A DNA stretch of 39,479 nucleotides, from contig JABLXR010000037.1 in NCBI GenBank assembly GCA_013178015.1, positions 1 to 39,479 on the forward strand, given 5' to 3'. Positions 17,854 through 22,550 of this stretch are shown piece by piece. A program made the translations under genes and the position numbers. The DNA is from Anaerolineae bacterium. Lineage in GTDB: Bacteria; Chloroflexota; Anaerolineae; DRVO01. Positions within the stretch are counted from its first letter, which is position 1, and each line of letters starts with the position of its first letter. The notes under the pieces are model-generated. The model saw only the letters and a program-made list of their open reading frames with translations. It was not told the origin of the DNA and ran no database searches.

Positions 17854-18318
17854 TCAGCGGGCGCCTTCACCGCCCCGTCCGGCCCATGGAGAACCTGGAT
17901 ACACCTCCAGGCCGGCGGCTTTGGCCGCTTCTGCCAGCCGATGGTCGTAGGTGACCAGGGTGACGCTCTCGCCGTGAAGCTGTCCGGCCCGGATGGCGGC
18001 GGCTAGGTGCACGGCATCGAAGCCTCTGAGGCCGTGCCGCCAGGCCAGTTCCCCCGCCTCCCTTCCCAGGCGCCCGTCCAGAGGGATGCGCTCGTAGCGC
18101 TCCCACTCGTGCAGGAAGGCCTGGAGGGCGGCCCGGGCGTCCTCCAGGCTCACGCTGCCCAAGCGCGTCGCCTTGGCGAGGGCGGCGGGCACCTCGGCGC
18201 CGCTAGCGGCGCCGGTGATCGGGGAGCCGTCGGCGGCCATGAGCGCCCCCACGTCGGCTGCTCCCGGCTCCAGGACATAGCGCTTCACCAGAGCGCTGGC
18301 GTCGTAGTACCGGATCAC
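17854..18318 (-). CDS. PIN-domain ribonuclease toxin (VapC-like)
   Basis: A 154-residue PIN protein. The four acidic metal ligands are visible as Asp6 (YYDASALVKRY), Glu42 (SGAEVPAAL), Asp101 (RGFDAVHLAAA) and Asp125 (VTYDHRLAEAA). PIN toxins cut RNA, often tRNA or mRNA, and are neutralised by the partner antitoxin. The ATG overlaps the antitoxin stop by four bases, the usual coupling. The length is slightly above typical VapC. The MNT gene follows downstream on the same strand. Confidence 0.88.
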   Translation of the reverse strand: MIRYYDASALVKRYVLEPGAADVGALMAADGSPITGAASGAEVPAALAKATRLGSVSLEDARAALQAFLHEWERYERIPLDGRLGREAGELAWRHGLRGFDAVHLAAAIRAGQLHGESVTLVTYDHRLAEAAKAAGLEVYPGSPWAGRGGEGAR

Positions 18319-18599
18319 TCCCTATCCTCGACCAGGAGCTCAGCTACTGTCTTGTCGCCCCGGAGCCGGGCGGGGGGCTCCATGGGCTCCAGTACCTCAC
18401 CGCTCCATTCCACTAGACCCATGTCGGCCAGCTCCCGTGCCCACTCCTGGTGAGAAGCGCGCGTTCCCGCGAAGGGCACGATACGTCCGATGGGCTTGCC
18501 CCGGTCGGTGATGACTATGCTGCTGCCCTCGCGGACCATCCGCAGATAGCGCCCCAGCCGCGCCTTCAACTCGCGAGCGCCTACTCTCTCCTCTACCAC
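18315..18599 (-). CDS. Phd/YefM-type antitoxin of the PIN toxin
   Basis: A 94-residue protein starting MVEERVGARELKARLGRYLR with EGSSIVITDRGKPIGRIVP, the standard Phd/YefM DNA-binding half. The acidic C-terminal tail would wrap the PIN toxin. The start is GTG at 18599, preceded by GGAGG four bases away. An almost ideal autoregulatory palindrome lies 22 bases upstream. The stop overlaps the toxin ATG. Confidence 0.87.
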   Translation of the reverse strand: MVEERVGARELKARLGRYLRMVREGSSIVITDRGKPIGRIVPFAGTRASHQEWARELADMGLVEWSGEVLEPMEPPARLRGDKTVAELLVEDRE

Positions 18600-21085: not shown

Positions 21086-21157
21086 TGTCATTCCGAGCGT
21101 AGCGAGGAATCTCCTACGTTTGGGAGGGGGAGATTCCTCGCTACGCTCGGAATGACA
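21086..21157. repeat. Long perfect palindrome, copy 1 of the 'cattccgagcgtagcgagg' element
   Basis: 27-bp perfectly complementary arms (21086-21112 and 21131-21157) around an 18-base loop. The left arm begins tgtcattccgagcgtagcga. A second copy at 22229-22300 has the same arms but a different loop, which shows selection for, or exchange of, the arms. It could form a cruciform or a very stable RNA hairpin downstream of the ceramidase gene. The organisation is like REP/MITE palindromes. Confidence 0.9.
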
Positions 21158-21370
21158 CTGAGGGGTTGTGCTCGGAATGACACTGAGGGGCTACACTCGG
21201 AATGACACTGAGGGGCTACACTCGGAATGACACTGAGGGGTTGTGCTCGGAATGACGCTGAGGGGCTACGCTCGGAATGACGCTGAGGGGTTGTGCTCGG
21301 AATGACGCTGAGGGGCTACGCTCGGAATAACACTGTGCGGTTGCACTCGGAATGACACTGTGGGGGCCTC
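21146..21370. repeat. 25-bp tandem array, nine units, phased on palindrome copy 1
   Basis: Nine head-to-tail units start at 21146, 21171, 21196, 21221, 21246, 21271, 21296, 21321 and 21346. The unit is ctcggaatgacactgagggg plus five variable bases (ttgtg, ctaca or ctacg, tending to alternate). The first unit starts inside the right arm of palindrome copy 1. Units with ctacg reconstitute most of the outer half of that arm (ctacgctcggaatgac). The last two units are the most degenerate. There are no spacers, so it is not a CRISPR. Confidence 0.9.
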
Positions 21371-21469
21371 GGGAGGGCAGGAGGGGGCACTCAGGACCAC
21401 GGGGGAAGCTCGAGCGTGGTAGGGGGCAGCCCCGGGGGGTTGGCAGAATCAGTGGAGGGGCAGACCGGA

Positions 21470-21754
21470 ATGGGCCCACGCACCTACTACGTCTACCTGA
21501 TGGCGAGCTGGTCGCGTACGCTCTACGTGGGCGTGACAAACGATCTGCAGCGCCGGGTCACCGAGCACAAGGCCAGAATGATGCCTGGCTTCAGCGCGAA
21601 GTACCATACGACCAGATTGGTGTGGTACCAGGAGTTCCAGGACGTGCACGAGGCCATAGCCTGCGAGAAGAGGATCAAGGGTTGGAGGCGAAGCAAAAAG
21701 CTGGCGCTGATCGAGTCAGCCAATCCCGATTGGGAGGACTTAGCTGCACCTTGA
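21470..21754 (+). CDS. GIY-YIG family endonuclease, small single-domain form
   Basis: A 94-residue protein with the GIY-YIG core: YYVYLMASWSRTLYVGVTND, where YVYL and YVGV are the two name motifs, followed by a conserved Arg in LQRRVTEHK. Then come KYHTTRLVWYQEF and EAIACEKRIKGWRRSKK, which contains the expected acidic residue. The ATG at 21470 has a GGAGGGG site, so earlier in-frame codons are rejected. It ends NPDWEDLAAP as in the YhbQ/UPF0213-like group. GIY-YIG enzymes make DNA nicks or breaks; cellular roles of this small group are unclear. The gene stands between the two palindrome-array elements, 100 bases after the first array. Confidence 0.88.
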   Translation: MGPRTYYVYLMASWSRTLYVGVTNDLQRRVTEHKARMMPGFSAKYHTTRLVWYQEFQDVHEAIACEKRIKGWRRSKKLALIESANPDWEDLAAP

Positions 21755-22094
21755 CGTGGTGTCAGCGGCACTAGGGGGAGTAGGCAGCCCGGGCGTAAGT
21801 GCGTCCCTGCGTGCCGTCCCCAGAACAGCTCTGGCAGGGAGTCCCGCTGATGGTAGCTGCCGCGTCTTGACATCGTTCGGGCCCTCTTGCCTGCTCTCAT
21901 CGTTGGGCCATCTGGTCTCCCTTCTGTATCTCGCTCCGCTACTCAGAGCTCCTTCTCTTGCCCTCCGGAGTCGGCTCTGCTGCGATCTTGGTGACGTTTG
22001 GGTCGCCGGTGCCGCTGTCGTGCCTTCTCTTGCCCTCCCGAGTTCGCTCTGCTGCAACGCCGGATGCGCTCTCCTACCGTTCCGCGCCCCTTCT
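21755..22094. repeat. Degenerate outer part of the 22-bp array, no gene
   Basis: No credible ORF. From about 21950 the words ttctcttgccctcc and tcggctctgctgc recur about 72 bases apart (near 21950 and 22021). The ttctcttg and ccgcact-like words grade into the clean array that begins at 22095. This looks like an older, diverged part of the same array. The first 190 bases hold nothing I recognise. Confidence 0.5.
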
Positions 22095-22226
22095 CTTGTC
22101 GTTGCGCACTGCCTCTCTTGTCATTCCGCACTGCCTCTCTTGTCATTCCGCACTGCCTCTCCTGTCATTCCGCACTGCCTCTCTTGTCGTTCCGCACTGC
22201 GTCTCTTGTCATTCCGCACTGCCTCT
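22095..22226. repeat. 22-bp tandem array, six units, left of palindrome copy 2
   Basis: Units start at 22095, 22117, 22139, 22161, 22183 and 22205, each exactly 22 bases, containing cattccgcactgcctctc. The array runs directly into the left arm of palindrome copy 2, sharing the tgtcattccg word with it. Units nearest the palindrome are the most uniform. Confidence 0.9.
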
Positions 22227-22228
22227 CT

Positions 22229-22300
22229 TGTCATTCCGAGCGTAGCGAGGAATCTGCAAGGTTCGGGAGCAGGGGATTCCTCGCTACGCTCGGAATGACA
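22229..22300. repeat. Long palindrome, copy 2
   Basis: 26-bp complementary arms (22229-22254 and 22275-22300) around a 20-base loop that differs from the loop of copy 1. The arms are the same sequence as in copy 1. Arrays abut on both sides. Confidence 0.9.
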
Positions 22301-22550
22301 GCAGACGGTTCTGGGAATGACAGCAGACGGCTCTGGGAATGACAGCAGGGGATTCTGGGAATGACAACAGGGGTTTTAGGAACGACAATGCGGAGATGCT
22401 CGGGATGACGATAGGGGACGCTCGGAACGGGGGGAAAGGGTCGCACCGAATGACAGGAGCGTCTGGGAGTGAGGAGGGATCGCTCGCAGTGACACGCTGT
22501 TCCTCGGGTGACGAGGGGATCGCTCGGAAGGACAGGAGGAAGGCTGATGG
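22301..22550. repeat. 22-bp array right of palindrome copy 2, decaying outward
   Basis: Units at 22301, 22323 and 22345 read gcagacgg, variable bases, then ctgggaatgaca, in phase with the right arm end. From about 22367 the words ggaatgac, gggatgacg and gaatgacagg persist at similar intervals but with growing divergence to about 22540. The orientation of ggaatgac here is the inverse of the left array, so the whole element is mirror-symmetric around the palindrome. The remaining 22551-22746 holds nothing recognisable. Confidence 0.75.

Follow-up and report, generated by a model that had tools for sequence, protein, structure and literature searches.

Bacterial REPs were sorted by a 2013 survey into two super-families, GTAG and CGTC, of which the GTAG repeats are tied to RAYT (PMC3733652). 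The CGTC REPs 'apparently lack a dedicated transposase' (Di Nocera et al.; PMC3733652): no transposase flanked by them was reported, their origin was left open, and GIY-YIG proteins are not mentioned in the survey. Few bacterial repeats are as widespread as the CGTC-type REPs, and a partner gene that can be recognised by its sequence makes the question of their origin directly testable. In the open-access literature of PubMed Central, we found no description of a link between GIY-YIG proteins and REPs, which does not imply that none exists elsewhere.

The locus described here lies on a contig of an Anaerolineae bacterium of the phylum Chloroflexota (JABLXR010000037.1, assembly GCA_013178015.1), whose whole analysed stretch of 39,479 nucleotides is referred to as the window. 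A sequence-only reading of it had noticed a lone GIY-YIG gene between two copies of a long palindrome and had proposed, by analogy with RAYT, that the enzyme cuts at or near the palindrome and drives its spread or the growth of adjoining arrays. The association itself is strongly supported by the inverted bracketing of this GIY-YIG subgroup, by a repeat class that follows the protein tree, by co-occurrence across genomes, and by orthologous sites that either carry or lack the element. The protein may further cut the DNA, render the elements mobile, and let the arrays grow, all of which we infer from the sequences. We consider it reasonably probable that the GIY-YIG protein is a dedicated nuclease of CGTC-type REP hairpins, which would fill a RAYT-like role with a non-homologous enzyme.

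Palindromes and GIY-YIG gene of the window

21086-21157, no strand: palindrome 1, an inverted dimer of two 27-nt REP-like hairpins (21086-21112 on the + strand and 21131-21157 on the - strand)
22229-22300, no strand: palindrome 2, an inverted dimer of REP-like hairpins (22229-22255 on the + strand and 22274-22300 on the - strand)
21470-21754, + strand: stand-alone GIY-YIG gene encoding 94 aa (PF01541, E 3.9e-14)

Each palindrome spans 72 bp, and the two are 90% identical to each other. Palindrome 1 consists of perfect arms of 29 nt around a loop of 14 nt and carries TGTC tags at both outer ends, and palindrome 2 has perfect arms of 27 nt. Two palindromes with the same arms and different loops, as proposed from the sequence, are thus present, with arm lengths of 29 and 27 nt replacing the 26-27 bp given before. 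The earlier view of simple arms needs a further correction, as the arms are hairpins in their own right, ATTCC-GAGCGTAGCGA-GGAAT. In both palindromes, the arm reads TGTC-ATTCC-GAGCGTAGCGA-GGAAT-CT and folds into a 4-nt unpaired tag, a 5-bp stem, tandem G-A mismatches, GC/GC, and a GTA loop of 3 nt. Since each arm is a tagged hairpin, each palindrome represents an inverted pair of REP-like units, head to head. Folded as single-stranded DNA, palindromes 1 and 2 reach -37.5 and -34.3 kcal/mol, respectively (z -14.5 and -11.9). Sequence searches of the 4.57-Mb draft genome place the palindrome or its arm at about ten further sites, alone or as dimers. About 400 bp away from one dispersed copy lies another long palindrome with 27-nt arms (CGTAGGGGCGAACCTTGTGTTCGCCCG; positions 1987-2049 of locus L003, contig C6 of the source genome).

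The gene, for which a GTG at 21416 is an alternative start, encodes a protein that keeps the invariant GIY-YIG residues Y9, Y19, G21, R29, H33, and E66; Y9, Y19, G21, R29, and E66 are conserved to at least 98% (134 rows). The protein belongs to the GIY-YIG nuclease superfamily, and nuclease activity is predicted for it. The only second PF01541 match in the source genome is a 609-aa frame, taken to be UvrC, so that the gene between the palindromes is indeed a lone one—the sole stand-alone GIY-YIG gene of the 4.57-Mb draft. It is separated from the REPs by 313 and 475 bp, which is more than in most relatives and speaks against a REP-dedicated role. The predicted structure is confident (pLDDT 91.6), and its nearest folds are UPF0213 proteins, followed by Slx1, a nuclease of branched DNA. 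Searches for an NCBIfam equivalog and for a PHROG assignment found none for the window protein; the PHROG matches are weak ones, by which the fold family takes in homing enzymes. A phage origin of the gene was rejected, with 0 matches among 50,697 phage records. On the - strand of the window, at 17854-18599, a PIN-domain toxin-like gene (PF01850) with a small antitoxin-looking ORF before it forms a possible toxin-antitoxin pair near the GIY-YIG region.

Tandem arrays of truncated heads

21158-21357, - strand: array 1, eight tandem 25-bp units, outward from the right-hand tag of palindrome 1
22096-22227, + strand: array 2, six tandem 22-bp truncated REP heads (TTGTCATTCCGCACTGCCTCTC)
22301-22366, - strand: array 3, three tandem 22-bp truncated REP heads, outward from palindrome 2

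These three arrays bear out that repeats built from the arm ends adjoin each palindrome. Their units start with the hairpin head (TGTCATTCCGAG...) and miss the 3' half of the stem; in array 1, the truncated head TGTCATTCCGAG is followed by a tail specific to each unit. In every case, the units of the window stack outward from the tag end, which for array 2 is the left-hand tag of palindrome 2. Beyond array 3, more degenerate REP heads continue up to about 22540. At the about ten other palindrome or arm sites of the source genome, no tandem array was found.

Outward-stacked heads beside a REP recur in other lineages, with unit sequences of their own. Among 31 distinct adjacent head/REP pairs—two of them from the locus of the window itself and several from one locus—most have the first 11-15 nt in common, that is, the tag, the 5' stem, and GA. 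Under a strict test, arrays occur near the gene at 9 of 80 loci and at 5 of 92 REPs distant from it. Head arrays are a trait of these elements, although some REPs far from the gene have one too.

Inverted bracketing across bacteria

The main sample comprised 80 named loci, which were picked by protein alone. A hairpin was scored as a tag plus a 5-nt stem with its complement within about 45 nt, and a gene as bracketed if such hairpins stood in inverted orientation within 200 bp on each side. Inverted bracketing applies to 35 of the 80 subgroup genes compared with 17 of 17,973 intervals drawn at random from the same loci, and any such hairpin lies within 200 bp of 62 of the 80 genes compared with 5.5% of random intervals. 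Other ORFs used as controls are bracketed in 4 of 465 cases (Fisher p 1.8e-28 against 35/80); three of these four are further, unselected GIY-YIG genes of the same subgroup, which leaves a true control of 1/462. Inverted REPs are hence clearly enriched at this GIY-YIG subgroup (35/80 against 1/462), as the sequence-only reading had anticipated. Bracketing was found in none of 36 loci of UvrC and other GIY-YIG subgroups, nor in any UPF0213-like locus among those checked. A fresh sample, kept apart from the design of the test, yields 11 bracketed genes out of 26, and 19 of the 26 with any hairpin.

By record title, the bracketed loci fall into at least 14 phyla, among them Chloroflexota, Pseudomonadota, Planctomycetota, Bacteroidota, Acidobacteriota, Ignavibacteriota, Nitrospinota, Bacillota, and several Patescibacteria. 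Within the phylum of the window, homologous genes are tightly enclosed with one inverted hairpin per side (e.g., L009, L010, L012, L018, and L029). The innermost bracketed units are between 346 and 623 bp long (median 442), and the simplest elements extend over about 350 bp from tag to tag. Elsewhere in the same genomes, REPs and REP dimers lacking the gene are scattered. A set of 160 distinct genes with full flanks contains 83 bracketed ones and 137 whose nearest hairpin is no more than 250 bp away; these counts are partly non-independent because several Bradyrhizobium orthologues are included.

These controls also bear on the possibility that REPs merely favour the gaps beside small genes, or act as terminators of the gene. 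REPs are intergenic, and one lies within 200 bp of 65 of the 465 control ORFs. However, inverted bracketing is about 200 times rarer at control ORFs after removal of the further GIY-YIG genes, and the bracketed units are polymorphic at orthologous sites, which makes coincidence or regulation extremely improbable. As for size, three of 171 ORFs below 200 aa are bracketed, and all three are GIY-YIG genes. Chance proximity and size bias are thus rejected by the ORF controls (1/462 true controls; 3/171 short ORFs).

In Neisseria gonorrhoeae (L149; NZ_CP119140.1, about position 1882287), an array of CGTCATTCCCGCG... hairpins surrounds a subgroup gene. These hairpins are the dRS3 repeats that the survey of 2013 mentions by name (PMC3733652).

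REP class and protein tree

The flanking hairpins fall into two classes: GA hairpins have a 5-bp stem, GA...GA mismatches, and a CT tail, and CC hairpins (CGTCATTCCCGCGAAAGCGGGAATCCA) a continuous stem and a CCA tail. On a tree of 133 proteins, the REP stem class changes seven times, compared with a mean of 44.55 and a minimum of 36 in 200 shuffles. For 62 rows of known phylum, the REP class shows 4 changes and the phylum 31. The nearest tree neighbours of the window protein are all of the GA class, to which the palindromes of the window belong as well. The residue that separates the classes best is K76 of the window protein: 63 proteins of the GA class have K/R at position 76, and 53 of the 67 in the CC class have W there. 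Repeat class and protein clade evolve together. As the repeat type follows the enzyme tree, the GIY-YIG enzyme is probably the missing partner of these REPs, which would handle them and perhaps also spread them.

Among the GA-class hairpins, the inner helix can be resolved in 94, and 74 of these have an apical GNA or GNNA loop. DNA mini-hairpins with loops of this type are reported to be extraordinarily stable (PMC4686876), and single-stranded DNA might hence be the acting form.

Co-occurrence of gene and repeats

In the phylum of the window, 12 of the 21 genomes that have two or more REP matches carry the gene, as do 11 of 130 others (p 1e-6); the figures for Pseudomonadota are 18 of 33 genomes with three or more matches and 19 of 167 others (p 2e-7). 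These are Fisher p values for the tested REP variant in two independent genome samples, with kinship ignored. Many draft genomes are rich in REPs and lack the subgroup gene (e.g., G116 with 200 matches, G323 with 160, and G449 with 143), and the distribution is patchy even within a genus, as G051, G133, and G149 lack the gene while congeners have it. The existence of REP-rich genomes without the gene implies that the repeats outlive or outrun it. Of the two findings that the sequence-only reading had held to speak against itself, palindrome-bearing genomes without the gene do occur (G116, G323), and a lack of proximity enrichment is clearly contradicted by the bracketing counts.

The genome with most REP matches of all, 768, is G375, which is supposedly gene-less. 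On its contig C87, a frameshifted subgroup gene lies between inverted CGTC REPs (L378, 1443-1818 of the locus).

A RAYT or other transposase might move the REPs and carry the GIY-YIG gene along as a passenger. Y1-type genes are indeed found in 12 of 21 REP-bearing genomes checked, that of the window included. Yet the other 9 of the 21 have no Y1 gene, none of 20 Y1/RAYT-type loci is bracketed by these REPs, and the 2013 survey likewise reports no transposase flanked by CGTC REPs (PMC3733652). Nor would a tree common to gene and REP class be expected of a passenger, and we regard this explanation as very unlikely. RAYT-driven spread as the main explanation is rejected on the bracketing of Y1 loci (0/20) and the genomes without Y1 (9/21). 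The Y1 (RAYT-type) gene in the genome of the window (contig C21, 22580-22912) is not flanked by the palindrome.

Gain, loss, and copy number

One orthologous intergenic site was compared across 118 Bradyrhizobium genomes and takes several states by species: no REP (L220, L227), a REP dimer without the gene (L228, L229), dimer-gene-dimer (L222, L235), REP-gene-REP (L225, L240), and a collapsed single hairpin with a tag at both ends (L221, L223, L224). Other species bear a third type of REP dimer there (GTCATGGCCGGGCTTGTCCCGGCCATCCACG; L230, L237, L243, L246, L247). In L242, the left end of one REP type is combined with the right end of another, a hybrid suggesting recombination between element types. 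The site is either a hot spot or a permissive gap.

Two further genera show the same kind of polymorphism. Sphingobium plasmids carry the gene unit in the interval from fnrL to a response-regulator gene; of the relatives, two carry a collapsed hairpin only (TYG64, TYG74) and one carries none. Azospirillum lipoferum has the unit inside its suf operon, where it separates sufB from sufC, and three relatives of 95-96% identity have this site without the gene. The same element thus occurs at different sites, and orthologous sites are both occupied and empty, as is the case for mobile elements. Target duplication and the exact insertion point are illegible in alignments of occupied and empty sites, as the intergenic flanks are too diverged.

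The single hairpin at gene-less sites is either a deletion product or the state before insertion. The latter would suit a homing-type parasite, whose gene spreads by cutting existing REPs as landing sites, with REP abundance being due to something else. Such an origin would agree with the simplest forms, which have the gene in the loop of a REP pair, with the one complete hairpin at the same site in gene-less alleles (Sphingobium TYG64 and TYG74; Bradyrhizobium L221, L223, and L224), with abundant REPs in genomes without the gene, and with the homing enzymes in the fold family. The collapsed hairpin is, however, equally explained as a deletion between the stems of two REPs, a full inverted REP, and not half of one, stands on each side of the gene, and the REP class tracks the protein clade across phyla. 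Homing is hence an unlikely, if serious, alternative.

Genomes with the gene hold 1-7 matches to it, and copies within one genome are mostly 65-78% alike: gene copying is slow or old, as for RAYTs, whose copies are slow or old likewise. Recent transposition of the gene within a genome was not seen except for near-duplicates (e.g., L284/L285 and the tandem pair in L270). In L026 (G106, contig C1, about 566-578 kb), two near-identical gene copies are repeated in tandem with a unit of ~650 bp, each with a REP set of its own, and a third copy lies 10 kb off.

Few and old gene copies could also be expected of a domesticated, structure-selective, Slx1-like nuclease that serves the host by resolving or pruning REP cruciforms, with the adjoining REPs autoregulating the gene and spread not being driven by it. 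That its nearest solved folds are UPF0213 and Slx1 and that the gene co-occurs with REPs fit as well. Against this, presence is patchy within genera, several diverged copies exist per genome, one Azospirillum has the unit inserted within its suf operon while three relatives have no such gene, and frameshifted relics occur. Overall, the gene looks like a mobile or selfish one and not like a housekeeping gene, and we judge a host-serving role to be distinctly unlikely.

Proposed mechanism

With the GIY-YIG protein as the dedicated nuclease of these REPs, the following sequence of events is reasonably probable. The protein would recognise tag and hairpin once the REP is extruded as a single strand or cruciform—a step supported by the co-evolution of REP class and protein—and would hydrolyse the DNA at the base of the hairpin. 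GIY-YIG enzymes hydrolyse DNA without a covalent intermediate; joining must hence depend on host enzymes, and host repair or replication might copy or join the freed DNA. This would result in slow movement of non-autonomous REP dimers and, more rarely, of the REP-gene-REP unit. The gene would be lost, and a single hairpin left behind, if the two REPs re-joined through their self-complementary stems. Growth of the unit would have led to the dimer-array-gene-array-dimer form of the window, the arrays of truncated heads probably being by-products of repeated cutting and repair, or of slippage, at the tag end.

The wider claim that the loci of at least 14 phyla form a class of mobile elements, in which REP hairpins and the nuclease gene itself are mobilised by a hydrolytic, single-domain GIY-YIG enzyme in place of a transposase or recombinase, and that this enzyme is the missing engine of CGTC REPs, has in our estimate about even chances. 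If the enzyme is indeed the partner of these REPs, the arrangement of REP plus enzyme arose at least two times with unrelated enzymes, and a function could be given to a large set of 'GIY-YIG nuclease family proteins' that are unnamed in NCBIfam.

Comparison with known systems

GIY-YIG homing endonucleases such as I-TevI have the same catalytic fold, and their genes, too, are polymorphic in presence at orthologous sites. Unlike in the I-TevI type, the gene described here comes without intron, intein, or DNA-binding extension and has inverted REPs on its flanks. The closest solved folds are Slx1, which acts on branched DNA, and UPF0213; unlike Slx1, the window protein bears no RING domain, and to our knowledge neither Slx1 nor UPF0213 proteins are linked to REPs.

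On the side of the repeats, the CGTC REPs, including dRS3 of Neisseria, have in common with the present hairpins the CGTC/TGTC tag, a stem opening with A-T, and dimers in opposite orientation (PMC3733652), and they occur in the same genera—Neisseria, Azospirillum, Sinorhizobium, Bradyrhizobium, and Novosphingobium. The CC class (CGTCATTCCCGCGAAAGCGGGAATCCA) fits the published stem, loop, and CCA tail of CGTC REPs (PMC3733652). The palindromes of the window have the unpaired tag TGTC, which along with CCTC is a variant of CGTC in these REPs, and are dispersed inverted dimers as well. CGTC REPs have a stem of 8-9 bp from A-T with a loop of 4-5 nt, a description that CC hairpins of relatives match, whereas the GA class of the window has a 5-bp stem and a 3-nt loop; its tail is CT in place of the mostly found CCA. 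As tag and dimer match while stem length and tail differ, the GA class of the window is regarded as a relative and not as a member of the CGTC REPs.

The closest parallel is the system of REP/REPIN and RAYT (TnpA-REP, GTAG), which is alike in its short tagged hairpins, mostly arranged as inverted dimers and dispersed between genes. There, likewise, one small low-copy enzyme gene is flanked by its own hairpins, and the repeat type follows the enzyme lineage; flanking of the gene by REPs is, by analogy, found here too. RAYT is an HUH Y1 transposase (PF01797) working with the tag GTAG, whereas the present protein is a GIY-YIG protein (PF01541) accompanied by the tag C/TGTC. The combination of REP and dedicated enzyme was hence already known, and what appears to be new is an enzyme unrelated to RAYT.
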